DNA of 64,000 nt from an uncultured Microbacterium sp. (GTDB taxonomy: Bacteria > Actinomycetota > Actinomycetes > Actinomycetales > Microbacteriaceae), in the NCBI GenBank assembly GCA_913774665.1, contig CAJYHN010000012.1:274299-338298 (forward strand). The letters run 5' to 3'. Each line of letters starts with the position of its first letter. Positions within the stretch are counted from its first letter, which is position 1. A program made the translations under genes and the position numbers. Under the pieces are notes generated by a model. The model worked only from the letters and a program-made list of their open reading frames with translations. It had not been told where the DNA came from and did not search any database. This document shows positions 1-63,737 of the stretch, in pieces.

Positions 1-502
1 GGGCGAGGGTCGCGACGACGAGCGTGGGGAGCCACGAGCGGACGGCGAAGGTGAGCACGGTCAGCACGGCACCGGCGATCGTGGTGATCAGCCACGCCTG
101 CCCGATCGAGCTCTCGACGAGGAAGCGGCCGAGCTGCTGCCCGAACACCGCGTCGAGCGTCGGCTTCGCGTTGAGGACGTTGAGGAAGGTCAGATACCCC
201 GTGGTGGCGGCCGAGACGGTGAACACGGCGGCGCCGATGGATGCCGTGTCCAGGGCGATCTCGAAGGGTCGCTCCCCCGCCGTCAGGGCGAACAGCGCCA
301 GGACCAGGGAGCCGACCATCGTGGCGGCGGCGAGGTTGACGACGACGGTGGCGATCGGCAGGCCCCAACGGACGACCGGACCGGGGTCGGCGAGCTGCGT
401 GGGAGCCGCGCCCCCTCCGTACGCAAGCCCCACCGCGACGGCGATCAGCGAAACCACGACCAGGATGACGGGTCCCGCGACGCGGAGCAGACGGGGATTC
501 AC
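1..502 (-). CDS. CopD/CtaG-type copper resistance / cytochrome c oxidase assembly membrane protein (N-terminal part)
   Basis: Partial gene: it starts with GTG at 502 and runs off the left edge, leaving about 167 N-terminal residues. Hydrophobic segments are visible near residues 5-27, 42-66, 78-98 and 125-160, including VVVSLIAVAVGLAYGGG and the loop GERPFEIALDTASIG. This matches the start of the long actinobacterial fusion of a CopD-like copper domain with a CtaG/Caa3 assembly domain; the CtaG half would lie outside the window, so the bifunctional reading is inference. A -10 box TAGGCT (514-509) sits 6 nt before the GTG with no Shine-Dalgarno, so the mRNA is probably leaderless. The HU terminator separates it from the upstream gene. 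Confidence 0.7.
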   Translation of the reverse strand, partial: MNPRLLRVAGPVILVVVSLIAVAVGLAYGGGAAPTQLADPGPVVRWGLPIATVVVNLAAATMVGSLVLALFALTAGERPFEIALDTASIGAAVFTVSAATTGYLTFLNVLNAKPTLDAVFGQQLGRFLVESSIGQAWLITTIAGAVLTVLTFAVRSWLPTLVVATLA

Positions 503-524
503 CCCCTCAGCCTACGTCGCGAGA

Positions 525-570
525 GAACGACAGAGGGGGGATGCCGTGTGGCATCCCCCCTCTGTCGTTC
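525..570. terminator. Perfect 21-bp stem terminator after the HU gene
   Basis: The arms 525-545 and 550-570 are exact reverse complements closed by a 4-nt loop (gtgt). The hairpin lies between the HU stop codon (580) and the copD-like start (502), both on the minus strand. The inner part of each arm is the heptamer GGATGCC or its complement, so the hairpin is built around an inverted pair of that word. No long U-tract follows, which is normal in high-GC actinobacteria. Confidence 0.85.
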
Positions 571-579
571 GACGTCGTC

Positions 580-867
580 TTACTTGACGGCGGCCTTCAG
601 CTTGGAGCCCGCGGTCACCTTGACGCGCTTGCCGGCGGGGATCGAGATCTCCTCGCCCGTCTGAGGGTTGCGGCCGGTGCGAGCCGAGGTCGCGACCTGC
701 TCGAAGGCGATCCAGCCCGGGATCGAGACCTTGCTGCCCTTGGCAACAGCCTCGGAGACCGTGGAGAAGAGCGAGTCGAGCACGCCCGAGACGGCGGACT
801 GGCTCTGTCCGGTCGCGCTCGCGATGCTCGCGACGAGCTCGGTCTTGGTGATGGACTTGTCGGCCAT
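580..867 (-). CDS. hup: HU family nucleoid-associated DNA-binding protein
   Basis: A 95-residue protein that bends and compacts DNA as a dimer. It begins MADKSITKTELVASIA and carries the HU beta-arm signature RNPQTGEEI at residues 66-74, whose proline intercalates into DNA in this family, followed by a basic end (GKRVKVTAGSKLKAAVK). The length equals the classical HU core, so it lacks the long lysine/alanine tail of mycobacterial HupB. ATG at 867 is chosen because GGAGG lies 7 nt upstream; longer in-frame starts are not conserved-looking. A GATACT -10-like box at 961-956 could drive it. Monocistronic, with a strong terminator at 525-570. Confidence 0.95.
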   Translation of the reverse strand: MADKSITKTELVASIASATGQSQSAVSGVLDSLFSTVSEAVAKGSKVSIPGWIAFEQVATSARTGRNPQTGEEISIPAGKRVKVTAGSKLKAAVK

Positions 868-1287
868 GTGGTTGTCCTCCAGCGACGACGACGGTCGTCT
901 CTCGTTACGCGGACGAGGGGAAAATCCTCCTCGGTGGTCGGGAGACCGCCTCGACAGTATCAACCGAACCCCGGAATTACGCGGATCCTGGGGGAAATAG
1001 GGGTCATTCGTGCCGGCGTGTCGCGGTGAATCGCGCTCCACCGGCGCAACGGCCGTCGTTCGGGCACCTCTTCTCGCGCGTCCGGAGTGTCTCCCCCGCG
1101 GGGGGACGGGTGAAAAGCGAAACCCACTTAGATGAAGTCCCGACAGGTGTCCAACCCATTACGGTCCGACCGGGGTGAACTATCTATCCCGGTTATCGGC
1201 GTATGTATGATCTCCGAGAATTCGTTAACAGGGTTGTTTAACCGAATTCGCGAGCAATCGGTGATTCGCCGGGTGAAGGGAGAGCAC
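868..1287. promoter_or_regulatory. 420-nt divergent intergenic region between hup and the LuxR-type regulator
   Basis: No credible gene lies here. On the minus side GATACT (961-956) is a plausible hup -10 box. On the plus side TATGAT (1206-1211) is a good -10 for the regulator gene. A long imperfect dyad follows it at 1218-1249. The stretch is visibly less GC-rich near 1140-1250 than the flanking genes. Confidence 0.5.
1218..1249. promoter_or_regulatory. 32-bp imperfect dyad in the 5' region of the LuxR-type gene
   Basis: Left arm GAATTCGTTAAC (1218-1229) mirrors right arm GTTTAACCGAATTC (1236-1249) apart from small bulges. It starts 7 nt downstream of the TATGAT -10 (1206-1211) and ends 38 nt before the start codon at 1288. 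It could be an operator at the transcription start, possibly autoregulatory, or a 5'-UTR hairpin. Confidence 0.5.
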
Positions 1288-2745
1288 ATGCCGGCCACAC
1301 AGACCACGACGGACGCCCGGACTGCCCTCCGCGCGGCCACGGTCATGATCGCCCAGCGCCTCGAACCCGGTCGCGGCGTTCCGGAAGCCCGGCACCTCGC
1401 GTTGCTCGCCGAAGCAGAAGCCTTCCTCGCACCGCCACTGTGGACCGACGGTGCGGCTCTCGCGCTCTCGGCCGTCTATGTCGCGCGAGCCCGGCGCGAC
1501 GTCCTCTCGGGCGACACCGATCTGGTGACCCGGTACTTCGAGGGCATGCGCCTCGTCCGTCCCGCGTCGTTGTCGTCGAGTGCTCGGGCACAGTTGTTCG
1601 CCAGCGTCGGCGAGTACTGCTGCGCCCTCGGGCGGGGTTCGCTCGGCGCCCGATACGCCGCGGAAGCGCTGCTGTTCGCCGACTCCCCCGCCCTGGAGTA
1701 CCGCGCCCACACCGTGATGGCCCTGGGTTTCGCGATCAACGGCGAGATCGTCTCCTGCGAACGATCCGTGCGCGAGGCGCGCCGCCTCTTCGCGGAGAAC
1801 GCTTGGCCCTTGGCCGAGATGCCGCTCTCGCTGCCGCTCTCGGAAGCCATGGTCGCTTCCGCACGCATGGACAAGGAACGGCTCGCCCTCATCGTGCGCG
1901 AGATGACGTCCGCCCAGCCCGACGACCCGTACTGGCAATACGCAGCGCGGGCGATCGATGTCATGCGCCAGTTGCTGCTCCGCGATTGCGCCGGAGGTCT
2001 CGCCACGAGCTGGGAGCTCCTCAACGGCAGCAGCCGGCACAGCAGCAATCACATGGTGCGCGACTACCTGTTCTGCCTTCGTGCAGACATCCTCACCGCC
2101 CAGGGCAACTGCGAGGAGTCCCTCACCATGATGGCGACGCGCGCGAGCCCCACGGGCCACAGCGTCTGCTTCGCCCTGCACCGAGCGGGCAACCTGCTGC
2201 AGCTCGGCCGGGACCGCGAGCTCCTCGCCGAAACCGACGGCTGCGTCACGGCCGTGAGCGAGCACTGCCTGAGAACGCTCACCCCCGTGCTGCTGCGGCG
2301 GGCCATCGCGTATGAGCGGTTGGGCGCGTCGTCGAAGGCTCGCGACAGCATGGTCGCCGCGATGCTGCTGATGGCTCGAACCGGCGACACCGTCAGTCCC
2401 TTTGCCCTGCTGCCCCACGACGAGACCCTCAGCCTCGTCGAAGCAGCCGTACACAAGCGCCAAGAACTCAGCAACACCGCCGCATTCGCTCGGGCCGTCC
2501 TCGCGGAGATGTGCGCGACGCCCCACGAGGACCAGTGCGCCCGCAAGATCGATCCCTTCGGCCTGACCCCCACCGAACGAGCCCTGGCCGAGATCCTGGA
2601 GACACGGGCGAGCTTGCCGCAGATCGCCCGGGACCGAGGGGTGTCCGTCAACACCGTCAAGAGCCAGGTGCGCTCGATCTACCTCAAGCTCGGCGTCGGC
2701 GGGCGCGCGGAAGCAACCGAGACCCTGCGACGCTTCGTCGCGTAA
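1288..2745 (+). CDS. LuxR-family transcriptional regulator with TPR-like sensor region
   Basis: A 485-residue protein. The last 62 residues are a LuxR/GerE helix-turn-helix: GLTPTERALAEIL, then IARDRGVSVNTVKSQVRSIY and LKLGVGGRAEA, the NTVK-QV recognition helix being typical. The first 420 residues are helical and alanine-rich and contain no Walker A motif, so it is not an ATP-dependent MalT/LAL protein despite a similar helical-repeat feel. ATG 1288 is preferred over upstream starts because GGGAG precedes it by 5 nt and the protein then begins MPATQTTTDART. Target and ligand cannot be inferred. It stands alone between hup and rpsN, ending in a terminator shared with rpsN. Confidence 0.85.
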   Translation: MPATQTTTDARTALRAATVMIAQRLEPGRGVPEARHLALLAEAEAFLAPPLWTDGAALALSAVYVARARRDVLSGDTDLVTRYFEGMRLVRPASLSSSARAQLFASVGEYCCALGRGSLGARYAAEALLFADSPALEYRAHTVMALGFAINGEIVSCERSVREARRLFAENAWPLAEMPLSLPLSEAMVASARMDKERLALIVREMTSAQPDDPYWQYAARAIDVMRQLLLRDCAGGLATSWELLNGSSRHSSNHMVRDYLFCLRADILTAQGNCEESLTMMATRASPTGHSVCFALHRAGNLLQLGRDRELLAETDGCVTAVSEHCLRTLTPVLLRRAIAYERLGASSKARDSMVAAMLLMARTGDTVSPFALLPHDETLSLVEAAVHKRQELSNTAAFARAVLAEMCATPHEDQCARKIDPFGLTPTERALAEILETRASLPQIARDRGVSVNTVKSQVRSIYLKLGVGGRAEATETLRRFVA

Positions 2746-2791
2746 CGCACGAGGGGCGGGGGTTCCGTTCGGAACCCCCGCCCCTCGTGCG
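2746..2791. terminator. Bidirectional terminator between the LuxR gene and rpsN
   Basis: Arms 2746-2766 and 2771-2791 form a perfect 21-bp GC-rich stem with a gttc loop. It begins directly after the regulator stop codon and lies 12 nt from the rpsN stop on the opposite strand, so it serves two convergent transcripts. Confidence 0.9.
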
Positions 2792-2802
2792 GTGTCTGGT
2801 GC

Positions 2803-3108
2803 TTACCAGGACGACTTGGTCACACCGGGCAGCTCGCCACGGTGGGCCATGTCACGGAAGCGGACGCGCGAGACGCCGAACTTCGTGAGGACGCCACGGG
2901 GACGGCCGTCGATGACGTCGCGGCTGCGCACGCGCGCGGGCGACGCGTTGCGGGGCAGCTTCTGCAGGCCCACGCGGGCGGCCTCGCGGGCCTCGTCGGT
3001 CGCGTTGGGGTCGACCAGGGTCTTCTTCAGCTCGGCGCGCTTCGCGGCGTAGCGCTCGACGACGACCTTGCGCTGCTCGTTGCGCGCGATCTTGCTCTTC
3101 TTAGCCAT
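2803..3108 (-). CDS. rpsN: 30S ribosomal protein S14, zinc-independent (C-minus) long form
   Basis: A 101-residue S14 beginning [14 protein letters not shown] with the conserved [33 protein letters not shown] end. The short zinc form is about 61 residues with CxxC...CxxC; this one has the long-form length and no cysteine at all, so it needs no zinc. It is the last gene of rpmB-rpmG-rpsN, 4 nt downstream of rpmG. In mycobacteria and Streptomyces the C-minus L28-L33-S14 set is induced by zinc shortage through Zur; the nearby zur and znuABC fit, but I found no clear Zur box before rpmB. Whether a zinc-type paralog exists elsewhere cannot be told here. Confidence 0.95.
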
Positions 3109-3112
3109 GTGC

Positions 3113-3283
3113 TTAGCGCTCCTCTCGGAAGTCGACGTGCTTGCGGACCACGGGGTCGTACTTCTTGAGCACGATGCGGTCGGGGTTGTTGCGGCGGTTC
3201 TTGCGCGTCACGTAGGTGTACCCCGTGCCGGCGGTCGAACGCAGCTTGATGATCGGACGAACGTCCTGAGCCTTCTTCGCCAT
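3113..3283 (-). CDS. rpmG: 50S ribosomal protein L33, cysteine-free form
   Basis: A 56-residue L33 that reads [20 protein letters not shown] and ends [16 protein letters not shown], with the family core [20 protein letters not shown]. Zinc-binding L33 paralogs carry CxxC pairs around the core; here every such position is non-cysteine, so it is the zinc-independent form. Its ATG overlaps the rpmB stop by 1 nt (TAATG), indicating translational coupling, and rpsN follows after 4 nt. Confidence 0.95.
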
Positions 3284-3519
3284 TACAGCTTCACGCCCTT
3301 CGCCTGCAGGTCACGGACGACGGCTTCGATACCGCGCGCGTCGATGACCTTGATGCCCTTCGCCGAGACGTTGAGCTTGATGTTGCGACCCAGCGACGGA
3401 ACGAAGTAGGTCTTCTTCTGCACGTTCGGGTCGAAGCGGCGCTTCGTCCGGCGGTGCGAGTGCGAGATGTTGTGACCGAAGCCGGGAACCGCTCCAGTCA
3501 CCTGGCACACTGCTGCCAT
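3283..3519 (-). CDS. rpmB: 50S ribosomal protein L28, zinc-independent form
   Basis: A 78-residue L28: [20 protein letters not shown] followed by [18 protein letters not shown]. Zinc-type L28 has two CxxC pairs; here only Cys5 remains, so this is the C-minus form, in line with its L33 and S14 partners. The start at 3519 follows GAAGGAGA at good spacing. It heads a three-gene operon behind an unusual structured leader (3541-3659). A longer reading frame upstream passes through the leader hairpin and is rejected. Confidence 0.95.
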
Positions 3520-3540
3520 GGTGTTGTCTCCTTCTGTACC

Positions 3541-3665
3541 GTGACACCGGACGGTGTCACCCAAGATCCCTTGTCTGCACCCCGTTCGAGCACGGCGGAA
3601 GGCCGGGATCGAGAAGTGGGGTGCGAACTGCGTGCTGGAGTGCGCGCAGACAAGGGATCAGTCTA
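3541..3665 (-). promoter_or_regulatory. Structured leader / promoter region of rpmB-rpmG-rpsN
   Basis: On the minus strand TAGACT (3665-3660) is a plausible -10. Just below it GATCCCTTGTCTGC (plus 3565-3578) and its exact complement (3646-3659) bracket 67 nt. With a start site near 3653 about 8 bp of this stem would be in the RNA. Inside, GCACCCC (3577-3583) can pair with GGGGTGC (3618-3624), and a second GATCCC (complement of 3605-3610) competes for the closing arm. A perfect 9-bp hairpin with a 2-nt spacer (3541-3560) then lies immediately before the Shine-Dalgarno. The alternative pairings suggest a regulatory 5' UTR; DNA-level operator function is also possible. I know of no Rfam leader class for this operon. 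Confidence 0.5.
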
Positions 3666-3752
3666 GCACGGCGTGTCGCCTTGACCTGATCGTGTCGTCG
3701 AAGGCGAGGCCGGAGCCTTTCGAGGGCCGGGGCTTCGACGCGCTCGGCCACC

Positions 3753-4424
3753 TCACGCCCCACCCGCCTCCGCCGCGCCCCGGCCCCAGCGGAACGCCGA
3801 GACCGTGGCATCCCCCTCGATCCAGAAGCGCCACGGGAACGCGTCGGTGCCGGCGATGCCGGCGACCCCCACGCGCGGCCCCGTCGCCACGACCGGCGGC
3901 GGCCCCGCGGGCAGGAGCAGTCGCGCTCGAGCCCCGGCCCGCTCCGCGCCGGTGACCGCATCGATGCCGTCATGGACCGGATGCCGAAGACCCACCGCGT
4001 CGCCGAATCGTCCGGGTCCGCGAGCGAGATCCCGCGACGCCCGAACCGCCCCGCGACGCTCGAGCCGGCGCCGCTCGGCGACGGCGGCCCCCTCGACGAT
4101 CTCTCCGCCGCGCAGCAGCACTCCGCCCGCGACGCCCTCTGGACCGCACACGACGTTCACACACGAATGGATGCCGTGGCTCAGGTAGACGTAGAGGTGC
4201 CCCGGCTCACCCCACATCGTGGCGTTTCGGGCGGTCGGCCCCATACGGGCGTGCGAACCCGGATCGGGCTGCTCTCCGGTGCCGAGGCCGTGGTACGCCT
4301 CGACCTCGGTGAGGCGCGCGACGACCCGTTCTCCGGCGACCTCGGTCTCGAGCAGGGCGCCCAGCAGCCGGGGAGCGACCTCGACCGGAAGATCGACGAG
4401 GTCGGCGCGGGTCGCGGGGCGCAT
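3753..4424 (-). CDS. 3-methyladenine DNA glycosylase (AAG/MPG family)
   Basis: A 223-residue base-excision repair enzyme that removes alkylated purines. It carries the AAG signature EAYHG with the expected catalytic Glu42, then GPTARNATMWGEPGHLYVYL and YLSHGIHSCVNVVC. ATG 4424 overlaps the upstream gene's TGA (TGATG), which fixes the start and implies coupling. It is the last gene of a run that begins with the zinc permease genes, but its role there is probably unrelated to zinc. A possible terminator hairpin with arms near 3696 and 3735 follows. Confidence 0.9.
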   Translation of the reverse strand: MRPATRADLVDLPVEVAPRLLGALLETEVAGERVVARLTEVEAYHGLGTGEQPDPGSHARMGPTARNATMWGEPGHLYVYLSHGIHSCVNVVCGPEGVAGGVLLRGGEIVEGAAVAERRRLERRGAVRASRDLARGPGRFGDAVGLRHPVHDGIDAVTGAERAGARARLLLPAGPPPVVATGPRVGVAGIAGTDAFPWRFWIEGDATVSAFRWGRGAAEAGGA

Positions 4425-10910: not shown

Positions 10911-11035
10911 AAATCAGTGGGCACCGCACACGAGGTTCTCAGGATTCGGCATCCTGCCGTTTTGTCCTTTCCCCGCGTGTGCGGTCGCCCGATTGTCGAC
11001 AGCGGACCCGGGGCGGGATCTCTTTACTGGGATCC

Positions 11036-12550
11036 ATGACCGACCACGACCTCCCCGTCATCGCGCACTGGATCAACGGCGCCGAGAGCGCCCCGAGGGG
11101 CGGACGCACCGCCCCCGTGTACAACCCCGCCACCGGCGCGGTGCAGGCGCACGTCGCCCTCGCAGACGAGGCCGACATCCAGGCTGCCCTCGCCTCGGCC
11201 GCGCGTGGCTTCGCCGAGTGGAGCGCTTTCTCGATCGCCAAGCGCCAGAGCGTGCTGTTCGCATTCCGCGAGCTGTTGAACGCCCGCAAGCGCGACCTGG
11301 CCGAGATCCTCACCGCCGAGCACGGCAAGGTGCTCTCCGACGCGTTGGGCGAGATCGCCCGCGGCCAGGAGGTCGTCGAGCTCGCGACCGGCTTCCCGCA
11401 CCTCATTAAGGGCGCCTACAGCGAGAACGCCTCGAGCGGCGTCGACGTGTACTCGCTCAAGCAGCCGCTCGGCGTGGTCGGCATCATCAGCCCCTTCAAC
11501 TTCCCCGCCATGGTGCCGATGTGGTTCTTCCCCATCGCCCTGGCCGCCGGCAACGCCGTCGTGCTGAAGCCGAGCGAGAAGGACCCCTCCGCCTCGCTCT
11601 GGCTCGCACGCCTGTGGAAGGAGGCGGGCCTCCCCGCCGGCGCCTTCACGGTGCTGCAGGGCGACAAGGTCGCCGTCGACGGACTGCTCGAAGCCCCCGA
11701 GGTGCAGTCGATCTCGTTCGTCGGCTCCACCCCCATCGCGCAGTACATCTACGAGACGGCGTCGAAGAACGGCAAGCGCGTGCAGGCCCTGGGCGGCGCG
11801 AAGAACCACATGCTGGTGCTCCCCGACGCCGACCTCGACCTCGTGGCCGACTCCGCCGTCAACGCCGGCTTCGGCGCCGCAGGCGAGCGCTGCATGGCCG
11901 TCTCCGTCGTGCTGGCGGTCGACCCCGTCGCCGACGAGCTGATCGCCAAGATCACCGAGCGCATCGCGACGCTGCGCATCGGAAACGGCGCGGACGCCGA
12001 CGAGCCCGACATGGGCCCGCTCATCTCGAGCGCCCACCGCGACAAGGTGTCGTCGTACGTCGACATCGCCGAGGCCGACGGCGCGACCGTCGTCGTCGAC
12101 GGCCGAGGCTTCTCGGTCGAGGGGCACGAGGAGGGCTTCTTCTTCGGCCCCACCCTGCTCGACGACGTGCCGACCTCCTCGCGGGCCTACACCGAGGAGA
12201 TCTTCGGCCCCGTGCTCTCGGTCGTGCGCGTGAAGACGTACGAAGAGGGTCTCGCTCTCATCAACAGCGGCGAGTTCGGCAACGGCACCGCGATCTTCAC
12301 CAAGGACGGCGGAGCCGCCCGCCGCTTCCAGCACGAAGTGCAGGTGGGCATGATCGGCATCAACGTGCCGATTCCCGTGCCCGTGGCCTACCACTCGTTC
12401 GGCGGGTGGAAGAAGAGCCTCTTCGGCGACGCGAAGGCCTACGGCGTGCACGGCTTCGACTTCTTCACCCGCGAGAAGGCCGTCACCAGCCGCTGGCTCG
12501 ACCCCGCCACCCACGGCGGCCTCAACCTGGGCTTCCCCCAGAACACCTGA
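11036..12550 (+). CDS. mmsA: CoA-acylating methylmalonate-semialdehyde / malonate-semialdehyde dehydrogenase
   Basis: A 504-residue aldehyde dehydrogenase of the MmsA class, which converts (methyl)malonate semialdehyde with CoA and NAD+ into propionyl- or acetyl-CoA. Landmarks are SPFNFPAMVPMWFFPIALA, KPSEKDPSASLWLARLWKEAG, and the catalytic cysteine in GAAGERCMAVSVVL; the end IPVPVAYHSFGGWKKSLFGD is typical of MmsA. ATG 11036 is preceded by TTTACT (11023-11028) 7 nt upstream and no Shine-Dalgarno, consistent with a leaderless mRNA. Downstream come PucR and an omega-aminotransferase, so a beta-alanine or related amine pathway ending in acetyl-CoA is plausible. A terminator hairpin follows. 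Confidence 0.93.
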   Translation: MTDHDLPVIAHWINGAESAPRGGRTAPVYNPATGAVQAHVALADEADIQAALASAARGFAEWSAFSIAKRQSVLFAFRELLNARKRDLAEILTAEHGKVLSDALGEIARGQEVVELATGFPHLIKGAYSENASSGVDVYSLKQPLGVVGIISPFNFPAMVPMWFFPIALAAGNAVVLKPSEKDPSASLWLARLWKEAGLPAGAFTVLQGDKVAVDGLLEAPEVQSISFVGSTPIAQYIYETASKNGKRVQALGGAKNHMLVLPDADLDLVADSAVNAGFGAAGERCMAVSVVLAVDPVADELIAKITERIATLRIGNGADADEPDMGPLISSAHRDKVSSYVDIAEADGATVVVDGRGFSVEGHEEGFFFGPTLLDDVPTSSRAYTEEIFGPVLSVVRVKTYEEGLALINSGEFGNGTAIFTKDGGAARRFQHEVQVGMIGINVPIPVPVAYHSFGGWKKSLFGDAKAYGVHGFDFFTREKAVTSRWLDPATHGGLNLGFPQNT

Positions 12551-12561: not shown

Positions 12562-12609
12562 CGGATGCCGTGGCCCCGGGCTCTGTGCAGCCTCGGGTCG
12601 CGGCATCCG
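12562..12609. terminator. Terminator-like hairpin after mmsA built on an inverted GGATGCC pair
   Basis: CGGATGCCG (12562-12570) pairs perfectly with CGGCATCCG (12601-12609), and the interior continues pairing with a few wobbles toward a loop near 12585. It starts 12 nt after the mmsA stop and is followed by a T-rich-for-this-genome stretch (tcgttctcttg). Together with 525-570 it is the second hairpin that uses this heptamer. Confidence 0.65.
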
Positions 12610-17491: not shown

Positions 17492-17523
17492 CCGACGGCC
17501 TCTCGACGGGGCATCCGCATTGT

Positions 17524-21390: not shown

Positions 21391-21480
21391 CCCGCAGAAC
21401 CCGACGCGGCCTGCCGGTCTTGCCCGGCCCGGACGAACGCGCAGGCCCGGGGCTCTGGCATCCGGCCCTCCGCCAGCTAT

Positions 21481-24426: not shown

Positions 24427-25448
24427 GAGCGCACCTCCGCGGCAGGCACGGCGACCTCGGTGTGCGCGCGCAGCTCCGCGACGACCGCGTCGAGGTCGTC
24501 GGCGTGAACGCGGTAGGTGAGGGTGCCGAGCTGTCGGCCCAGCACGTCGGTCACCCCGCCGTACACGACCGAGTGGCGCGCATCGTGGCGGTGGAAGACC
24601 GCCGAGACGTCTTCGCTCGAGAACTCGTTGATCTCGACGCTCACCAGATCGCCGCCGCCCGCGGCGAGCGCCGACAGCGCCTCACCCGACGGCACGCCCT
24701 GGGTCACCGCCGCGACGAACCGCTTCGTCAGCTCGGCGCGCGGATGCGCGAACACGCGGTACGTGTCGCCGCTGTCGACGACGCGGCCGCCGTCCATCAC
24801 GATCACCTGATCGCACAGCTCGTGCACGATCGAGATCTGGTGCGTGATGACGACGATCGTGATGCCCAGGCGCCGGTTGATCTCGCGCAGCAGGTCGAGC
24901 ACCTCGGCCGTGGTCTGCGGGTCGAGGGCGCTCGTCGCCTCATCGGCGAGCAGGATGCGCGGGTCGGTCGCGATCGCGCGGGCGATGCCGACGCGCTGCT
25001 TCTGCCCGCCCGAGAGGCGTCGGGGGTACTGCTTCGCCTTGTCGCCGATGCCGACGAAGTCGAGCAGTTCAGCGACGCGCTTGTCGCGGTCGGCCTTCTT
25101 CCAGCCCGCCACCTTGAGCGGATAGGCGACGTTCGCCGCGACCGTGCGCGAGGTGAAGAGGTTGAACTGCTGGAAGATCATGCCCACGCGGCGTCGGAGG
25201 TCACGGAGCTTCGCCTCCGTGGCATCCCCGACGTCCACGCCCAGCACCTTCACGGTGCCCGACGTGGGCTGCTCGAGGCCGTTCAGCAGCCGGACGAGCG
25301 TGGACTTACCCGCGCCCGAGTAGCCGATCACGCCCACGATCGACCCCTCCTGTACCGTCAGCGACACGTCGTCGACGGCGGTGGTGGAGGTGCGGCGATC
25401 GGTGCGGAAGCTCTTGGTGACGCCCCGCAGCTCGATGACCGCGGTCAT
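24423..25448 (-). CDS. metN: Methionine ABC transporter ATP-binding protein MetN
   Basis: A 341-residue ATPase: Walker A GYSGAGKST near residue 41, signature LSGGQKQRVGIARAI, Walker B ILLADEATSALD and THQISIVHELCD. The C-terminal 90 residues form the NIL/ACT-like domain (EINEFSSEDVSAVFHRHDA) that in E. coli binds methionine and inhibits the transporter. ATG 25448 overlaps the metQ stop by 4 nt, fixing the start. Confidence 0.94.
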   Translation of the reverse strand: MTAVIELRGVTKSFRTDRRTSTTAVDDVSLTVQEGSIVGVIGYSGAGKSTLVRLLNGLEQPTSGTVKVLGVDVGDATEAKLRDLRRRVGMIFQQFNLFTSRTVAANVAYPLKVAGWKKADRDKRVAELLDFVGIGDKAKQYPRRLSGGQKQRVGIARAIATDPRILLADEATSALDPQTTAEVLDLLREINRRLGITIVVITHQISIVHELCDQVIVMDGGRVVDSGDTYRVFAHPRAELTKRFVAAVTQGVPSGEALSALAAGGGDLVSVEINEFSSEDVSAVFHRHDARHSVVYGGVTDVLGRQLGTLTYRVHADDLDAVVAELRAHTEVAVPAAEVRS

Positions 25449-26347
25449 CCCTTCTGAGCCTTGAGGGCGTCTTCGAGGCTCGTCAGCTCGTCCTGCAGCT
25501 GCGCGCCCGTCCAGTCGGCCTTGAACTGCAGGTTGCCCTGGTTGAGCTCGGTGACCGCGGCCTCGACCTCGGTCGAGTGGTACGCCTCGACGAGCTTCGC
25601 CCAGCGCGGGTCGTCCTTCTTGTCGTCGCGGGTGACGAAGGCGTTGATGTAGGGCGCGAGCTGCGGGTTGTTCAGGTCTTCCTTGAAGATGATGAGCTCG
25701 TCGCCGAGCCCGCCCTTCTGCGCCTGCGTGTTGTTGACGATCGCGGCCTGGGCGCTGCCGTCCTTGAGCGCGGTGACGGTCTGGTTCGTGTCGACGGGCA
25801 GCAGCTCGACCTTCGAGGTCTCGATGTCGGCCGGGGTCGACAGCGCCGTTCCGCCGTCCTTCAGGGTGAGCAGCCCGGCCTTCTGCAGGTTGAGCAGACC
25901 GCGGGCGAGGTTGGTGGGGTTGTTGGGGATGGCGATCTTCGCGCCCTCGGGCAGGTCCTTCACGTCCTGGTACTTCTCGGAGTACAGCGCGAGCGGGTAC
26001 ACCGCCGTCGCGCCGACCGGCACGAGCGAGCCGTTGTTCTCGACGTTGAACTGCGACAGGTAGATGAGGTGCTGGAAGAGGTTCACGTCGAGCTCGCCGT
26101 CCTGCACGCCCTGGTTGAGCTGCACGCCGTCGTTGATGGTGCGCACCTCGAGGTCGATGCCTTCGCCCGCGAGCTTCTGCTTCAGCACCGTCCAGTGCGT
26201 CTCGTTGCCGTCGTCGGCGCCGAGGACGATGCGCGAGGAGTCGCCTGCGGATGCCGCACCCCCGGCGCAACCGGTGAGGGTCAGCATCAGAGCGGCGGCG
26301 GAAGCACTGAGGATCGTGGCCAGGCGTGCGGTGCGGCGAGAAGTCAT
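25445..26347 (-). CDS. metQ: MetQ/NlpA methionine-binding lipoprotein
   Basis: A 300-residue lipoprotein: signal peptide with lipobox LTGC at residues 24-27, then the NlpA-type core (VLKQKLAGEGIDLEVRTIND, DVNLFQHLIYLSQFN, AIPNNPTNLARGLLNLQKAG). It captures methionine for MetNI. No SAM riboswitch or S-box was recognised upstream. A small dyad CGTTACGGCCGGTAACG (26390-26406) in the divergent gap is a candidate operator. Confidence 0.93.
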   Translation of the reverse strand: MTSRRTARLATILSASAAALMLTLTGCAGGAASAGDSSRIVLGADDGNETHWTVLKQKLAGEGIDLEVRTINDGVQLNQGVQDGELDVNLFQHLIYLSQFNVENNGSLVPVGATAVYPLALYSEKYQDVKDLPEGAKIAIPNNPTNLARGLLNLQKAGLLTLKDGGTALSTPADIETSKVELLPVDTNQTVTALKDGSAQAAIVNNTQAQKGGLGDELIIFKEDLNNPQLAPYINAFVTRDDKKDDPRWAKLVEAYHSTEVEAAVTELNQGNLQFKADWTGAQLQDELTSLEDALKAQKG

Positions 26348-26389
26348 GAGACCACGTCAGCACGCGGCATCCGGGATCGGAATTCGAGG

Positions 26390-26406: not shown

Positions 26407-26510
26407 GGCTGTCACGCGGAGTAATCGATTGGGTGGATGCCGAGGCATCGGCGATGATCGCAGGCCTCACCGACCCGCGGGCTCACAGCGGAGGCGTAAC
26501 CTGGACAGCG

Positions 26511-27950
26511 ATGTCACGGGATGAAAACGCGCGTAAGAGATTGTCCCGGAACAGCCCCCAAGGTCTGGTCGTCGCGATCCTGGCCCTCGCCGGTCTGTGC
26601 TCGTCGTTCATGTTCACCCTCGTGGTGCCCATCCAGTCGCAGCTTCCGCAGCTGCTGAACGCGTCGCGCGACGACACCGCGTGGGTCGTGACCTCGACGC
26701 TGCTCGCCGCGGCCGTGATCACCCCGATCGCTGGCCGCCTCGGCGACATGTACGGCAAACGGCGCATCGTGCTCGTGCTGCTGGTCGTGATGATCCTCGG
26801 CTCGGTCATCGCCGCGCTGTCGACCGGCATCGTCGGCATGATCATCGGGCGCGCTCTGCAGGGCGCCATCGTGGGCGTCGTCCCGCTGGGCATCTCGATC
26901 ATGCGCGACGTGCTGCACGAGAACCGCGTCGACAGCGCCATCGCGCTCATGAGCGCGACGCTCGGCGTCGGCGGGGCGCTGGGCCTTCCGATCAGCGCGC
27001 TCGTGGCCGAGAACACCGACTGGCACTGGCTGTTCTGGATCGCCGGGGCCCTCGGTGCGGTCGTGTTCGCGCTGATCCTCTGGATCGTGCCGGTGAGCGT
27101 GCTGCGCACCGCCGGCCGCTTCGACTACGTCGGCACCGTCGGCCTCGCGGTCGGTCTGATCGGCATCCTGCTCGCCGTGTCGCGCGGCAACACCTGGGGA
27201 TGGTCGTCTCCGCTGACGCTGTCTCTCGCCATCGGCGGCGTTGTCGTCCTGCTGCTGTGGGGATGGTTCGAGCTCCGCGTCGACAATCCCCTCCTCGACC
27301 TGCGGGTCGCCGCCCGGCGCCCCGTGCTGCTGACCAACCTGGCTTCCGTCGCGATGGGTTTCGCCCTGTTCACCTCGAACGTCGCGTACCCGCAGATGCT
27401 CGAGCTGCCGCTCGCGACGGGTGTGGGCCTCGGGCTGTCGCTGCTGGCCGCGAGCCTCGTGGTCATGCCCTCCGGGCTCGTGATGATGGTGCTCTCCCCC
27501 ATCTCGGGCACGCTCGCGCGAACGATCGGGCCCCGAGTGCTGCTTGTCGCCGGGTCGATCTCGCTGATCCTCGCGTACGGCTTCAGCCTGTTCTTCTCCA
27601 CCGAGGTGTGGCACTTCGTCGTCGCCAACATCCTCATCGGCTTCGGTATCGGCTTCGGCTACGCCGCCATGCCGATGCTGATCATGCGCGCGGTCCCGCC
27701 GAGCGAGACGGGCGCATCGAACGGGCTCAACGCCCTCGCCCGGTCTCTCGGCACGAGCACGGCCGCAGCGATCGTGGGTGTCGTCCTCGCGACGCTGTCG
27801 ACGGTCGATGGCGAGACGCGCGTGCCGACCTCGCAGGCGTTCCAGGTGTCGTTCCTGCTGGGCATCGGGGCGGCGGCGGTCGCGCTCGTGCTGGCGCTTC
27901 TCATCCCGACGCGTTCGACGCCGGTCGAAAAGCACCCGTCGCTGCCCTAA
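26511..27950 (+). CDS. MFS transporter, DHA2-like 14-TM drug efflux type
   Basis: A 479-residue major facilitator with about 14 hydrophobic segments. Motif A appears as GRLGDMYGKRRIVL after TM2, motif C-like GGALGLPISALVAEN in TM5, and the second half has LARTIGPRVLLVAG. The 14-TM count and TM1 SSFMFTLVVPIQSQLPQLL with D-T-A-W-V-V-T match the DHA2 drug:H+ antiporters. ATG 26511 is preferred; a TAACCT box lies 8 nt upstream. Substrate unknown. Convergent with the E2 gene. Confidence 0.85.
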   Translation: MSRDENARKRLSRNSPQGLVVAILALAGLCSSFMFTLVVPIQSQLPQLLNASRDDTAWVVTSTLLAAAVITPIAGRLGDMYGKRRIVLVLLVVMILGSVIAALSTGIVGMIIGRALQGAIVGVVPLGISIMRDVLHENRVDSAIALMSATLGVGGALGLPISALVAENTDWHWLFWIAGALGAVVFALILWIVPVSVLRTAGRFDYVGTVGLAVGLIGILLAVSRGNTWGWSSPLTLSLAIGGVVVLLLWGWFELRVDNPLLDLRVAARRPVLLTNLASVAMGFALFTSNVAYPQMLELPLATGVGLGLSLLAASLVVMPSGLVMMVLSPISGTLARTIGPRVLLVAGSISLILAYGFSLFFSTEVWHFVVANILIGFGIGFGYAAMPMLIMRAVPPSETGASNGLNALARSLGTSTAAAIVGVVLATLSTVDGETRVPTSQAFQVSFLLGIGAAAVALVLALLIPTRSTPVEKHPSLP

Positions 27951-31662: not shown

Positions 31663-31760
31663 GAACCCACGCTAACGCGCGACCCATGCGCGAGACCGCA
31701 TGAGGTGCACAACGGATGCCAGGATTCGGCGTTCGTTGTCGACAAAGGCGCGGTCGTGGA

Positions 31761-32837: not shown

Positions 32838-33080
32838 CCCGCGAGCCTAACCGGGGGCCGCCGCGCGCGTCAGTCCCCCTTCGGGACGGCCTTTCTCGCT
32901 CGCCCGGTCCCGACCCGCACCCGCCCCCGCCCCCGGCACAGAATCGGGCCGGCGCAGCGGATGCGGACCGGCGCAACGCGTTCGGATCGGGGAGTCCTCG
33001 GCATCCCGAATCCGGTGCGCGGATCCGATTCCGCTCACCGAGCCCCTCATCCGGCGGAACATGCGTGCCACGATGGGGGC

Positions 33081-48139: not shown

Positions 48140-48170
48140 TCCGGGATGCCGGCGCCCGGCGCGACGGGCA

Positions 48171-56959: not shown

Positions 56960-56982
56960 GCCCGCGCGAGCCCCCGACGCAC

Positions 56983-57043: not shown

Positions 57044-57044
57044 C

Positions 57045-57150: not shown

Positions 57151-57176
57151 CGACCCGCAGACCACCCCGCGTCGGC

Positions 57177-58664: not shown

Positions 58665-58906
58665 AGGGAAGTGTACCGAGGCGACTCTGAACGATCGGTG
58701 GGCCGAGCGCCACTGCTCATGACCTCAGGATCCCCTCAGCTGCTCATCCGAATGCTGACGGCAGCGGTGACCCGACCGACGAGACTCTCGAGAGGTTCCG
58801 TGAGGTTCATGTCTCACTTTCGACTCATTCGAGTCCACGTCGAAACACGTCGCTCGCGGGCGAGCAATCGTGCGCACCCCTGCCATCGGGGCGGGCGGGG
58901 TCCGCG

Positions 58907-59053
58907 TCAGCGCCGGTCGGACTCGACCCAGCGCGTGTGCGACTTCAGCGCGTGCAGCACGGCGAGGCGGACGGTGACGTACAGCACGGCCCCGACGGCG
59001 ACCAAGGCGACGCCCCACACGAGCAACAGGTAGAGGAAGTGGACTCCGAACAC
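58907..59053 (-). CDS. Small 48-residue single-TM membrane protein
   Basis: A short frame from GTG 59053 to TGA 58907-58909. It reads VFGVHFLYLLLVWGVALVAV then AVLYVTVRLAVLHALKSHTR and ends WVESDRR: one long membrane helix and a basic cytoplasmic end. It begins 9 nt after the acyltransferase stop, on the same strand, and uses GC-ending codons like real genes. No Shine-Dalgarno is obvious. Probably a small membrane partner or an independent small protein. Confidence 0.55.
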   Translation of the reverse strand: MFGVHFLYLLLVWGVALVAVGAVLYVTVRLAVLHALKSHTRWVESDRR

Positions 59054-59062
59054 TCCGCGAGC

Positions 59063-60256: not shown

Positions 60257-60486
60257 GGTGCTGATGGTCGTCGCCTCCGTGTCGTCTCTCGCGCCGGCGA
60301 TGAGTGACCCGTGCGCGGCGCACGAGTCCACACCGACCCGGGAGAAGCTACCGGTCGAGTGTCAAGAAACGCCTGAAAGGGCCGGGGCTTGACGTCGTCG
60401 GCATCCCTTCTCGTGGATAAGGACCGGGCCCCGTGGGTAGCCTGGCGGTTCCGCGCCGATCCCCTGGCGCCGGGGGGAGATGGCAG

Positions 60487-60876
60487 ATGGCCACACGTTC
60501 GATGTACCCGGTTCCGCCGGAGAAGCTCGCTCGTCGCGCGCGGCTCTTCGCGTTCGTGCTGGCGCCGGTCTTCGCCGTCGTCGCGGTCATGTACCTGTGG
60601 ATCGGTCGGGACCAGCCCACCCTTCTCGCGGGTGGGGTGACGGTCGCTCTGCTGAGCGTTCTGTGGATCGTCGCCGCGCTGCGTCCATCTGCCAGGGTCC
60701 ATCTCGCGGCCCTCGCGGTCGCGGGGGGCGGGGCTGTCATCGCGGCCGTGGCGGCGTTTGCGTCCGTCGGGGCGACGAACGGTCTGTCCGTCACGTATCT
60801 GATCGGCGTGGTCGTCAACATCGCCATCGGGTACTTCTTCGTGCGCCTCACCGTGCGGGCCGTGATGGCGCGCTGA
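60487..60876 (+). CDS. Four-TM membrane protein of unknown function
   Basis: A 129-residue protein: ARLFAFVLAPVFAVVAVMYLW, LLAGGVTVALLSVLWIVAAL, LAALAVAGGGAVIAAVAAF and VTYLIGVVVNIAIGYFFV are membrane helices. ATG 60487 follows GGGGGAGA. I do not recognise a family. Confidence 0.7.
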   Translation: MATRSMYPVPPEKLARRARLFAFVLAPVFAVVAVMYLWIGRDQPTLLAGGVTVALLSVLWIVAALRPSARVHLAALAVAGGGAVIAAVAAFASVGATNGLSVTYLIGVVVNIAIGYFFVRLTVRAVMAR

Positions 60877-60978
60877 TCCCGCGCGCGTCGACACGCGGCG
60901 GCAATCCGAATCGCGTGCTTCTCCGAAAAATGCGTGTCGGTCCCCCACCCGGGGTCCGTGCACTCGCCCGGAGGAATG

Positions 60979-62814
60979 ATGATCGAGACGCACACGCCCG
61001 CTTTGGCGCGCCTGGACGCGTTCACCAACGTGACCGATCTGCTCGTTCGCCGAGCGGAAGAGGCCCCCGATCACATCGCCTTCGAGGTGCCGGTCGACGG
61101 CGGGTGGGAGCCGGTCACCACCGTCGCATTCCTCGACGCGGTCCGCGCCCTCGCGAAGGGGATGGTGGGCGCGGGGCTCCAGCCCGGCGACACCGTGGCC
61201 ATCATGGCGCCGACGCGCTACGAGTGGGCCGTCGCCGACCTGGCCACCTGGTTCGCCGGGGGTGTGGTCGTTCCCGTGTACGACTCGTCGTCGGCCTCGC
61301 AGGTCGAGGCGATCGTGCGCGATGCCCGTGTGCGCCTCGCCGTCGCCGGAACGCGTGCCCACGCCGACCTGCTCACCGACGCGCTCGCGCGGGGCGAGGG
61401 CGAGACACTCGGTGTCTGGGCGATGGCGGGCGCCGACGGCGTCCCCTCGCTCGACGAGCTCAGCGCTCGGGGGGCGGACGTCTCGGATGCCGCGCTCGAG
61501 GACCGACGCACCCTCGCCGGCCACGACGACCCGGCCACGATCGTCTACACCTCGGGCACCACGGGTGAGCCCAAGGGGGCCGTGCTGACGCACGCGAACT
61601 TCCTCGGCCAGGTGCTGAACATCGCCGCCGCCTACCGCGAGGTCGTCCATCCACGGGGTAACACGATCATCTTCCTGCCGCTCGCGCACGTGCTCGCCCG
61701 TGGCCTGCAACTCATCTGCATCGCGAGCGGCATGCGCATCGCGCACCTCTCCGAGCCGGCGCAGGTCGTCCCCGCTCTCGCGGTGCTGCGTCCCACCTTC
61801 CTCGTGGCGGTTCCGCGGGTGCTGCAGAAGATCCAGTCCGCCGCCGCCGACAAGGCCGCTGAGAAGAACCTCGGCCCGGTCTGGGCCCGCGCGGTCTCGA
61901 CCGCGATCCGCGGGGGTCGCTTCGCCGAATTCCAGGATGCCGGCCATCCGCGTCCCGTTCCGTTCGGCTTCCGCGTGCGAAAGGCCGTCTTCGATGCCCT
62001 GTTCTACTCGCGCCTGCGCGCGGTGATGGGCGGTCGCGTGGGGTACATCCTGTCGGGTGGGGCGACCCTCGATCGCGATCTGTCGTTGTTCTTCCGGGGG
62101 ATCGGCGTTCCGGTCATCGAGGGCTACGGCCTGACCGAGACGACCGCGCCGCTCACCGGCAACCTCCCGGGGCGCATCGCGTCGGGCACCGTGGGGCTGC
62201 CGCTTCCCGGCTCGACCGTGCGCATCAGCCCGCAGGGCGAGGTGCTCGCGCGGGGCGTGGGCGTGTTCTCGGGGTACCGCGATCCGCGGCACGACGCCGA
62301 GGCGTTCGTGGACGGGTTCTTCCGCACGGGTGACCTCGGGCGCATCGACGACTCCGGGCGCCTGGTCCTCGAGGGGCGTCTGAAAGACGTCATCGTCACC
62401 TCGAACGGCAAGACGGTAGTGCCCGCCCGCTGGGAGGGCGCGGTCGAGGCGAGCCCGCTCGTGCAGCACGCCGTCATGGTCGGCGAGGGCAAGCCCTATC
62501 TCTCGGCCCTGCTGATCCTCGACCCCGAGCAGTCCGCCGCGTGGCTGGCCGCCAACGGTTCCGCGCTCGAGCCCGGCACCCCCGGGGCCGTGCGCGCGGT
62601 CGACGATCCCCGCCTGACCGCCCACCTGCAGACCACCGTCGACGCGGCGAACGCCCTCGTGGCGCGCAGCGAGCAGGTGCGTCGCTTCACCCTCGTGCTC
62701 GCCGATCTCGACGACCACGAGCTGGTGACCCCTACTCTCAAGATCAAGCGCCGCGAGGTCCTGCACCGCGCCGCCGACACGATCGACACCCTGTACCGAG
62801 GAGCCGCCTCATGA
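60979..62814 (+). CDS. Long-chain fatty-acid-CoA ligase (AMP-forming, FadD15-like)
   Basis: A 611-residue ANL-superfamily enzyme. AMP motif YTSGTTGEPKGAVLTH near residue 193, the acyl-binding GYGLTETTAPLTGN near 385, and the hinge/C-terminal TGDLGRIDDSGRLVLEGRLKDVIVTSNGKTV near 455. The size and N-terminal order match the FadD15-like long-chain synthetases of actinobacteria. ATG 60979 is 4 nt after GGAGG; ATG 60976 would be too close. Its TGA overlaps the next ATG (ATGA). Confidence 0.9.
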   Translation: MIETHTPALARLDAFTNVTDLLVRRAEEAPDHIAFEVPVDGGWEPVTTVAFLDAVRALAKGMVGAGLQPGDTVAIMAPTRYEWAVADLATWFAGGVVVPVYDSSSASQVEAIVRDARVRLAVAGTRAHADLLTDALARGEGETLGVWAMAGADGVPSLDELSARGADVSDAALEDRRTLAGHDDPATIVYTSGTTGEPKGAVLTHANFLGQVLNIAAAYREVVHPRGNTIIFLPLAHVLARGLQLICIASGMRIAHLSEPAQVVPALAVLRPTFLVAVPRVLQKIQSAAADKAAEKNLGPVWARAVSTAIRGGRFAEFQDAGHPRPVPFGFRVRKAVFDALFYSRLRAVMGGRVGYILSGGATLDRDLSLFFRGIGVPVIEGYGLTETTAPLTGNLPGRIASGTVGLPLPGSTVRISPQGEVLARGVGVFSGYRDPRHDAEAFVDGFFRTGDLGRIDDSGRLVLEGRLKDVIVTSNGKTVVPARWEGAVEASPLVQHAVMVGEGKPYLSALLILDPEQSAAWLAANGSALEPGTPGAVRAVDDPRLTAHLQTTVDAANALVARSEQVRRFTLVLADLDDHELVTPTLKIKRREVLHRAADTIDTLYRGAAS

Positions 62815-63737
62815 CCGCACCTGTTCCCCCCACCTCGGAACGGTCCCCCGCGACCCAGAACCGCACGGCTGTCATCGCGATCGTGGTGGCCCTCGTCATC
62901 GGCGCGGGCCTCGCGGTCGCCGGAAGCTTCAGCGGGGCGCGGGTCGCCGGCATCCCGGTGTTCGCGATCGCCGTGACGGCGGCTTTCGTCATCCAGTTCC
63001 TCGTCTTCATCCCCTCGGCGCTGCGCCGCACCGAGCGGTTCTTCGACCTCACCGGCAGTGCGACGTTCATCGCCGTCTCGGTGGCGGTGGCCCTGCTCGC
63101 GCCCCAGCAGGACGCCCGCGGGTGGATCCTCGCCGCGATGGTCGTCGTGTGGGCGGCGCGCCTGGGATCGTTCCTCTTCGCGCGCGTGCACCGCGCCGGC
63201 TCCGACGGTCGTTTCGACGAGATCAAGACGAAGCCGCTGCGCTTCCTGCAGGTGTGGGCGATCCAGGGGCTCTGGGTGTCGCTGACCGCGTCGGCCGCGT
63301 GGATCGCGATGAGCGCGGATGCCACCGCGCGTTCGTCCCTCGACGGTTTCGCGATCGCCGGCATCGTGGTGTGGATCGCCGGCATGGTGTTCGAGGTCGT
63401 CGCCGACCTGCAGAAGCAGGCGTTCCGCGCCGACCCCGCGAACAAAGGCGAGTTCATCCGCACGGGCCTGTGGTCCAGGTCGCGCCACCCCAACTACTTC
63501 GGAGAGATCCTCGTCTGGGTCGGCGTCTTCCTCGTCGCCGCTCCCGTGCTGCAGGGCTGGCAGTGGGTCGCCGTCCTGTCGCCGCTGTTCGTCATCCTGC
63601 TGCTCACGCGGGTCAGCGGCATCCCGCTGCTCGAGAAGCGCGCCGACGAGAAGTGGGGCGATCGCGCCGACTACCGCGCCTACCGCGACGCGACGCCGGT
63701 GCTGATTCCGGCGCTGACCGCTCGATCGGGATCGTGA
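62811..63737 (+). CDS. DUF1295 / steroid 5-alpha-reductase-like membrane protein
   Basis: A 308-residue membrane protein with about eight hydrophobic segments. The C-terminal part carries the DUF1295/ICMT-like motif RTGLWSRSRHPNYFGEILVWVGVFL and later YRAYRDATPVLIP. FFDLTGSATFIAVSVAVALL and KPLRFLQVWAIQGLWVSLTASA are further landmarks. Such proteins may reduce or methylate lipids. Translationally coupled to the acyl-CoA ligase by ATGA, which supports a lipid role. Confidence 0.85.
   Translation: MTAPVPPTSERSPATQNRTAVIAIVVALVIGAGLAVAGSFSGARVAGIPVFAIAVTAAFVIQFLVFIPSALRRTERFFDLTGSATFIAVSVAVALLAPQQDARGWILAAMVVVWAARLGSFLFARVHRAGSDGRFDEIKTKPLRFLQVWAIQGLWVSLTASAAWIAMSADATARSSLDGFAIAGIVVWIAGMVFEVVADLQKQAFRADPANKGEFIRTGLWSRSRHPNYFGEILVWVGVFLVAAPVLQGWQWVAVLSPLFVILLLTRVSGIPLLEKRADEKWGDRADYRAYRDATPVLIPALTARSGS

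Follow-up and report, generated by a model that had tools for sequence, protein, structure and literature searches.

The heptamer GGATGCC is strongly over-represented in the genome of an uncultured Microbacterium sp., of which a stretch of 64 kb (contig CAJYHN010000012.1; hereafter the window) is described here. Together with a purine at its eighth position (GGATGCCR) it is probably a self-recognition word for DNA uptake, used across much of the Microbacteriaceae in species-specific dialects. Such a function had been suggested by an earlier reading of the window from its letters alone (the sequence-only reading), and of the explanations considered it is the one best supported by sequence signatures, because of the density of the word, its strand symmetry, the selection acting on it, its pairing in hairpins, its scarcity in DNA of low GC content and the existence of dialects. 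Most of the testable signatures of an uptake word were found; the exceptions are a clean absence from foreign DNA and a co-variation with the uptake apparatus.

Genome-wide excess and selection at the DNA level

The source genome (G000; genomes and loci are referred to by G and L numbers) comprises 3.58 Mb in 14 contigs, and its nearest named relatives according to the purB product are Microbacterium testaceum, Microbacterium sp. T32 and Leaf151 (96-98% identity). GGATGCC occurs 5487 times in this genome (1.53 copies per kb) and equally often on both strands (2725 + 2762), compared to 212 + 163 copies of the word read backwards. For the window, 54 copies of GGATGCC and 48 of GGCATCC had been tallied by eye; the excess holds, while the exact figures are 57 and 50 on the plus strand, corresponding to 107 sites or 1.67 per kb. 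Arithmetic from the base counts agrees with the earlier statement that composition alone predicts about 15 sites in the window. In a 461-kb sample consisting of the window and loci L001-L020 of the same genome, which contains 754 word sites, Markov models of order 1, 2 and 3 predict 104, 105 and 138 copies, respectively (7.3-, 7.2- and 5.5-fold excess); the over-representation is thus larger than the six-fold originally claimed (about 7-fold relative to order 2). When all 7-mers of this sample are counted against such models, GGATGCC ranks first by z-score at both order 2 and order 3. The sequence-only reading had named an order-5 model as its criterion. Models of order 4 and 5 predict 326 and 549 copies, but they cannot decide the matter because they are trained on pieces of the word itself. 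Words of the type AGCAGCA/CGAGCAG, which are enriched in many samples, are probably codon-related.

Selection acts on the DNA word rather than on protein. Shuffling of synonymous codons within 413 genes, predicted with our own simple gene finder, yields 185 +/- 11 copies, compared to 651 observed (3.5-fold). Ala codons located after G and before TCC are GCA in 168 of 216 cases, compared to 10 of 117 when they do not follow G; similarly, GAT accounts for 258 of 348 Asp codons after G and before GCC and for 73 of 510 when not after G. These context preferences inside the word (Fisher p below 1e-35) confirm the earlier impression that the rare codons GAT and GCA are chosen to spell it. As had also been noted, copies are found in genes and between genes at about 1.6 per kb (coding DNA 1.61 per kb; intergenic DNA 1.73 per kb, 100 intergenic sites).

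Extended motif and conservation between species

The heptamer as originally described is real but incomplete: it is followed by G or A at 95% of the 754 sites, and 103 of the 107 window sites have a purine as eighth base. The full word is GGATGCCR with weak preferences over about 35 bp, scored against a background matched for codon position. These preferences extend from approximately -12 to +22 and comprise A or a purine at -12 to -5, A/T at -3 and C at -1 on the upstream side, and C at +8, G at +9, A at +10, C at +12 to +14 and C again near +21 on the downstream side. A check of flanking conservation had been proposed together with the word, and the asymmetric pattern of G000 indeed recurs in G070 (823 sites) and largely also in 481 pooled intergenic sites of G000, G070, G627 and other Microbacterium loci. 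In the genus to which G151 belongs there is hardly any constraint on the eighth base, and the flanking preference was not seen in a pool of 21 low-density loci (135 sites; the low- and high-density pools were hand-picked by density).

Alignment with M. testaceum DE0422 (260,587 aligned nucleotides, 89.2% identity) demonstrates that the word is maintained by something acting on DNA. The 7-mer is intact at 80% of 456 gap-free sites, compared to 50% for the mean 7-mer, and its conservation ranks 11th among 1238 common 7-mers. GAT was kept in 144 of 164 cases inside the word and in 179 of 599 elsewhere, GCA in 98 of 117 and 54 of 263, respectively. Between genes, 327 of 345 word bases are identical (94.8%), whereas the intergenic background is 84.8% (15,711 of 18,530). 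Only 367 of the 464 aligned copies are common to both genomes, and there is therefore turnover besides maintenance.

Dialects

Several species that are poor in GGATGCC carry another enriched word of similar shape. These alternative words are CGGATCC, CGGATGCY, CCGGATG, CGGATGGC, CAGGATC and GYGGATCG, and at least six spellings share GGA, mostly GGAT. CGGATCC, whose dialect is the palindrome CGGATCCG, is the top 7-mer in samples of G057 (234 copies vs 35.5 expected, 80 kb) and G043 (65 vs 14.2 expected, 38 kb). Among 80 whole genomes counted, in which each CGGATCCG site counts on both strands, CGGATCC reaches 6303, 7188 and 9980 copies in G043, G057 and G064 and 5752 in G129, a member of another genus; the next of the 80 genomes, G102, contains 2222. 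The corresponding numbers of GGATGCC in G043, G057 and G064 are 812, 828 and 1313.

Synonymous shuffling supports the dialects in the same way as it does GGATGCC (observed vs expected copies are given). For CGGATCC we found 215 vs 32.0 in G057, where GGATGCC is at 26 vs 27.0; 182 vs 22.6 for M. excoecariae, M. sorbitolivorans and bin90 taken together; 114 vs 19.9 for M. azadirachtae plus bin15; and 117 vs 19.1 in G129, with 15 vs 9.8 in G000 as a control. CAGGATC is enriched in G141 (58 vs 15.9), and GCGGATCG (39 vs 11.9) and GTGGATCG (25 vs 9.8) in G145. In G178 (L207-L209) two related words are enriched side by side, GCAGGATC (26 vs 5.6) and GCAGGAGC (36 vs 8.0). GGATGGC is the third-ranked 7-mer of G032 (70 vs 21.3 expected), and in a larger sample of this genome CGGATGGC ranks first (81 vs 22 by synonymous shuffling). 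Samples of 12-21 kb revealed CCGGATG in M. halophytorum and M. halotolerans (48 vs 13.3), CGGATGCT in M. sp. MPKO10 (13 vs 0.8) and, at 10 vs 0.4 and 15 vs 1.6, in two strains of M. esteraromaticum, where GGATGCC is present as well, and CGGAACC in one uncultured strain (16 vs 2.4). No clear GGAT-type word was detected in samples of G110, G112, G139, G107 and G096 or in the loci of Curtobacterium, Labedella, Mycetocola lacteus and M. sp. Root53; other enriched 8-mers of G139 were set aside as probably codon-related.

The dialects were placed on a purB tree of 79 of 80 loci (about 5-21 kb each; L127, a 3.7-kb fragment, was left out) using labels from the eight words already found. On this tree the label CGGATCC needs two changes, both forced by well-supported branches, and all word labels together need 13 changes compared to 20.6 in shuffles.

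Phylogenetic range

GGATGCC reaches at least one copy per kb in 73 of 99 Microbacterium genomes, the highest density being about 1.9 (counts divided by rounded genome sizes). Across 149 genomes from 78 genera of the family, the count ranges from background level, as in G145 (229; control 245) and G207 (223; control 248), up to 7364 in G151. Nothing above about 0.68 per kb was found outside the family in draws of 198 genomes of the order and 197 of the phylum, from which family members had been set aside; the densest of these genomes, G306, shows 56 copies vs 37 expected in its sample. Three loci labelled Bradyrhizobium sp. dw_411 (L093), Pseudomonadota metagenome-assembled genome (MAG; L078) and Acetobacteraceae MAG (L102) encode a Microbacterium-like purB product (79-84% identity) and fall inside Microbacterium on the purB tree; they probably represent contamination or mis-binning.

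Strand, spacing and pairs

Replication strand was analysed in the closed genome G070, with dnaA at 1.60 Mb, the terminus assumed opposite and 26 sites of the origin stretch left out. In this one genome, 417 of 797 sampled sites are on the leading and 380 on the lagging strand (52.3% leading, p 0.20), so that the strand bias which the sequence-only reading had proposed to look for around the origin is absent. These counts show neither an orientation with replication of the Chi type nor an FtsK polarity towards the terminus of the KOPS type. Even spacing was not seen either, as spacing is close to random in four sets (coefficient of variation 0.95-1.15).

Inverted pairs are enriched between genes, as had been anticipated. 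Among 54 intergenic pairs within 40 bp, 30 are in hairpin orientation, 12 are inverted in the other sense and 12 are direct, with 13.5, 13.5 and 27 expected (hairpin excess p 6e-7; the species are related, and the pairs are thus not fully independent). All three inverted pairs originally described in the window exist. Two of them build hairpins that fold stably, and the third lies at the claimed metQ-MFS gap. The hairpin at 525-570 is located between two predicted minus-strand genes (2-502 and 580-867) and has a folding energy of -51.4 kcal/mol on the plus strand (z -8.6) and -49.1 kcal/mol on the minus strand; the hairpin at 12562-12609 is located 3' of a predicted plus-strand gene (11036-12550), with -40.8 kcal/mol (z -4.3) and -35.1 kcal/mol, respectively. 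These elements and the further sites listed for the window are:

239-63630, both strands (57 forward, 50 reverse): run of 107 GGATGCC/GGCATCC sites, exact count
525-570, no strand: terminator-like hairpin, stem with inverted pair 539-545 (plus) / 550-556 (minus)
539-545, plus strand: GGATGCCG, intergenic, arm of hairpin 525-570
550-556, minus strand: GGATGCCA, intergenic, arm of hairpin 525-570
549-3806, no strand: 3.3-kb stretch with the word only at its ends, from the list of word-free gaps
10948-10954, minus strand: GGATGCCG, intergenic
12562-12609, no strand: terminator-like hairpin, stem with inverted pair 12563-12569 (plus) / 12602-12608 (minus)
12563-12569, plus strand: GGATGCCG, intergenic, arm of hairpin 12562-12609
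12602-12608, minus strand: GGATGCCG, intergenic, arm of hairpin 12562-12609
17510-17516, minus strand: GGATGCCC, intergenic, among the four window sites without a purine at base 8
21457-21463, minus strand: GGATGCCA, intergenic
26366-26372, minus strand: GGATGCCG, first member of inverted pair, located between predicted genes 25445-26287 and 26541-27950
26435-26441, plus strand: GGATGCCG, second member of inverted pair with 26366-26372
31714-31720, plus strand: GGATGCCA, intergenic
33000-33006, minus strand: GGATGCCG, intergenic
48144-48150, plus strand: GGATGCCG, intergenic
60400-60406, minus strand: GGATGCCG, intergenic

Word-poor DNA, phages and segment ends

The word is scarce where GC content is low: 5-kb bins of G000, G070 and G627 with less than 66% GC contain 0.25-0.38 copies per kb (16 bins), compared to 1.8 copies per kb in bins with 70-72% GC (118 bins). 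Long word-free stretches of G000 carry genes that we take, by eye from their N-termini, to be phage-like. Within the word-free gap at 549-3806 of the window there are three small genes (2803-3501), presumably ribosomal protein genes, again recognised by eye from their N-termini. Two word-free stretches of about 5 kb are also present in the dense genome G070 (L024, 4941-9971 and 11251-16002), with genes that appear from their N-terminal sequence to resemble cytochrome oxidase and bc1. Three related Microbacterium phages (L204, L205, L206), each with an annotated serine integrase or recombinase, have a word density of 0.6-0.8 per kb, about 2.5-fold above the order-2 expectation. Finally, accessory segments, which have no counterpart in M. 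testaceum, end within 10 bp of a word in 6 of 38 cases (window 10950, 48140, 56551 and 60395; L005 15342; L011 6945), compared to 6% of random intergenic places. This proximity is probably a side effect of conserved words on local alignment and was left unused.

Competence apparatus

ComEC is encoded in 47 of 48 genomes, hand-picked as dense or word-poor. In G070 a gene for ComEA (SLBB and HHH_3 domains) adjoins comEC and a holA-like gene, and a comparison of the comEC locus in 12 genomes revealed an adjacent ComEA gene in every one. A small Flp/Tad-like locus is located between acs and topA (both named by eye); it encodes a TadA ATPase (PF00437), a T2SSF protein (PF00482), a 76-aa DUF4244 protein (PF14029) and two small proteins without Pfam match that are TadE/TadG-like in appearance. 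The motif TAEYAIATMAAVAFAG of the DUF4244 protein can be set beside the Flp pilin motif TAEYGILTLAAVGFAG of Micrococcus luteus, for which the review PMC6370729 describes Flp pili as required for natural transformation, along with comEA and comEC and no comG cluster. A match to this Flp-like pilin was detected in 158 of 160 genomes, 157 of them over the curated cut-off and some split or partial (the set includes all 99 genus genomes; 79 of 80 matched in each half); the two genomes without a match are incomplete. The dense genomes G000, G070, G009, G055 and G058 have a single PF00482 match, the weak one of the Flp/Tad locus. All five genes of the pilus locus are open in G145, whose GGATGCC count is at background.

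The pilin gene, which resembles the pilus gene used by M. luteus for competence, is a recurrent integration site. It is split at about the same spot (profile positions 21-27) by 8-17 kb, and by 66 kb in one genome, with the following split genes:

L184, 2403-13172: split DUF4244 gene
L185, 2645-11315: split DUF4244 gene
L186, 2535-11234: split DUF4244 gene
L187, 2303-10726: split DUF4244 gene

Search rows indicate a split gene also in G007, G063, G071, G089 and G134. The insert of L186 encodes a serine recombinase (Pfam), and judging by the N-terminus those of L184, L185 and L187 seem to encode a similar protein; in L185 the recombinase frame continues from the pilin start, and L185 and L186 encode a primase-polymerase. 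G113 (C1 1649627-1654993; L188) contains a full DUF4244 match and, 5 kb off, a second C-terminal piece, which may be the remnant of an earlier insertion. In G043 an IS3-type transposase pair (by eye; L178 5337-6535) follows the T2SSF gene, where relatives have pilin genes, and TadE- and TadG-like genes together with a DUF4244 fragment are found on another contig (L190). The DUF4244 gene of G043 is interrupted or partial, yet this genome carries the dense CGGATCC dialect.

A probable uptake word and its rivals

From the word, its maintenance, its dialects and the apparatus genes we infer a function, a receptor and a drive as follows. The competence apparatus would include a DNA receptor, at the surface or in the membrane, with a preference for double-stranded DNA that bears the word; ComEA and the small pilins encoded by the Flp/Tad-like locus between acs and topA are the candidates. 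Fragments chosen in this way would enter through ComEC and recombine with the genome, and this bias in uptake (molecular drive) would spread word-bearing alleles on either strand and wherever they are tolerated. If the specificity of the receptor shifted in a lineage, the genome-wide word would shift along. The most economical reading is a single uptake-word system with a drifting receptor. In activated sludge that had received a non-conjugative plasmid, Hi-C connected this plasmid with M. oxydans, which PMC10257627 takes as transformation.

Several observations weigh against this interpretation. The plasmid of that Hi-C study was foreign (PMC10257627, as far as available). Neighbours of GGATGCC differing by one substitution are hardly enriched (0.50-2.11-fold of the order-2 expectation in the 461-kb sample), although a gradual drive (Bakkali 2007) might enrich them. 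The intergenic density of the word merely equals its coding density. Foreign DNA is not clearly devoid of it: DNA of G000 that does not align to M. testaceum contains 1.42 copies per kb, compared to 1.78 in aligned DNA, and the three phages contain 36, 34 and 28 copies vs 14, 14 and 11 expected. Apparatus and word do not co-vary. ComEC and DUF4244 are equally present in G110, G112, G139 and G107, and the competence genes do not discriminate because they occur also in these species without a detected word; a link of the word to the presence of ComEC was accordingly rejected. Strong PilC-type matches to PF00482 are found in dense and wordless genomes alike (the same 48 genomes), and a link to a type IV pilus was rejected. 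Low density is not tied to interruption of the pilin gene either: of the 26 genus genomes below one word per kb, 4 have an interrupted or partial gene (G043, G054, G085, G096), compared to 8 of the 73 above (G007, G042, G046, G063, G069, G071, G089, G091; Fisher p 0.51). Lastly, the palindromic CGGATCCG dialect has no longer flank, with no significant flank position in G129, and is in this respect closer to the cyanobacterial word HIP1.

The main rival, which we regard as unlikely, is accordingly a HIP1-like iterated word with an intracellular role in chromosome organisation, replication or repair, kept by selection site by site and read by a protein of drifting specificity. Such a word would fit the density, which is in the same class as that of HIP1, the 8-bp palindrome CGGATCCG without longer flanks, the strong conservation between species and the lack of co-variation with competence genes. 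However, GGATGCCR is no palindrome, its long flank is asymmetric, the copies are spaced at random instead of evenly, the word is scarce in low-GC stretches, and a change of spelling within one genus would mean that thousands of sites serving an essential function were rewritten. Chi words are oriented with replication, and their spelling differs by lineage. A Chi-like recombination word, at which a repair helicase-nuclease (AdnAB, RecBCD or a related enzyme) is stopped or switched so that self DNA is marked, would account for the over-representation, the lower density in the three phages than in dense hosts and the lineage-specific spelling, but the absence of an orientation with replication, together with hairpin pairs and a 35-bp flank, neither of which is known to us as a feature of Chi, makes it improbable.

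Recognition by a methyltransferase or restriction system, which the sequence-only reading had named as a possible refutation, is very unlikely. The words are short and defined, and GGATCC is the BamHI site; on the other hand they are palindromic in some species and not in others, no neighbour is strongly depleted (lowest 0.50), and restriction sites are usually avoided rather than enriched in genomes. The same lack of a strongly depleted neighbour also argues against a repair bias of the Vsr type. We give even less credence to a relic, i.e. an ancestral uptake word in species most of which have now lost uptake: while density varies continuously within the genus and mobile elements interrupt the pilin gene of some genomes, present-day conservation of the word in comparison with an 89%-identical relative is strong, dialects differ inside the genus, and transformation of Microbacterium in sludge has been reported (PMC10257627, in the part available). 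An artefact of codon usage or composition, finally, hardly needs to be considered. It could draw on the order-5 prediction of 549 of 754 copies and on the frequency of Gly-Ile (GGC ATC), but order 5 includes the hexamers of the word itself, and the 3.5-fold excess over synonymous shuffles, the equal intergenic density and the conservation in M. testaceum all contradict it.

Significance and comparison with known systems

As far as we know, established uptake words are confined to two proteobacterial families, and their origin, receptor and role as species barriers have so far been studied on these two examples. No report of GGATGCC or of any uptake signal sequence in Microbacterium or the Microbacteriaceae was found in the open-access literature, to which the search was confined (subscription papers and preprints lay outside its scope), in agreement with the earlier statement that no such word was known for this family; the matches listed for the broader uptake-word literature comprised reviews, Gram-negative cases and unrelated papers. 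Microbacterium is an actinobacterial genus that grows easily and has many sequenced species, and a word with dialects in this genus would provide a third, independent test. If the interpretation as an uptake word is correct, it would point to natural transformation in Microbacterium, and the receptor could be traced directly by relating changes in proteins to changes of dialect. If it is not, a genome-wide word spelled differently in sister species is itself unexplained. As a tentative extension, which may well be right and is slightly likelier to be wrong, this could be a third and independently evolved uptake-word system, the first in Gram-positives, in which a minimal Flp/Tad pilus replaces the ComP-type minor pilin, frequent receptor switches within the genus create dialects that act as barriers to gene exchange between sister species, and serine-recombinase elements repeatedly inserting into the pilin gene would switch exchange off.

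The HIP1 palindrome of cyanobacteria occurs at about one copy per kb. Our word is similar in density, and CGGATCCG is likewise a palindrome; in contrast to HIP1, GGATGCCR, CAGGATC and GYGGATCG are not palindromes, and the dialects change within one genus. The uptake signal sequence (USS) of Haemophilus has a flank spaced by about one helix turn and consisting of A/T tracts, and lineage-specific USS variants exist. The flanks described here are not A/T tracts, and one-substitution neighbours are hardly enriched. Over-representation is shared with the USS of Pasteurellaceae (PMC1939737). A core word with a longer flanking preference, spaced by about one helix turn, and variants by lineage are further features in common. 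The competence pilus of M. luteus resembles the Microbacterium locus in its pilin motif (TAEYxIxTxAAVxFAG), TadE-like pilins, comEA and comEC, and no uptake word for M. luteus is mentioned in the available part of PMC6370729; the Microbacterium locus is minimal in comparison, with about five genes, and its role in uptake is putative.

The closest parallel is the DNA uptake sequence (DUS) of the Neisseriaceae. According to Frye et al. 2013 (PMC3630211), it has eight dialects that share a CTG core, follow the phylogeny and form pairs at terminators. The Microbacterium word differs from DUS in that it belongs to another phylum with another cell envelope, has the core GGA(T) rather than CTG and consists of a 7-8 bp core with weaker flanks; the Neisseria receptor is ComP, and the receptors proposed here are candidates. 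The two are alike in the following respects, as far as this source (PMC3630211) goes: both are present in thousands of copies, form dialects around a short core that are distributed phylogenetically, occur in and between genes, and are arranged as inverted pairs at terminators.

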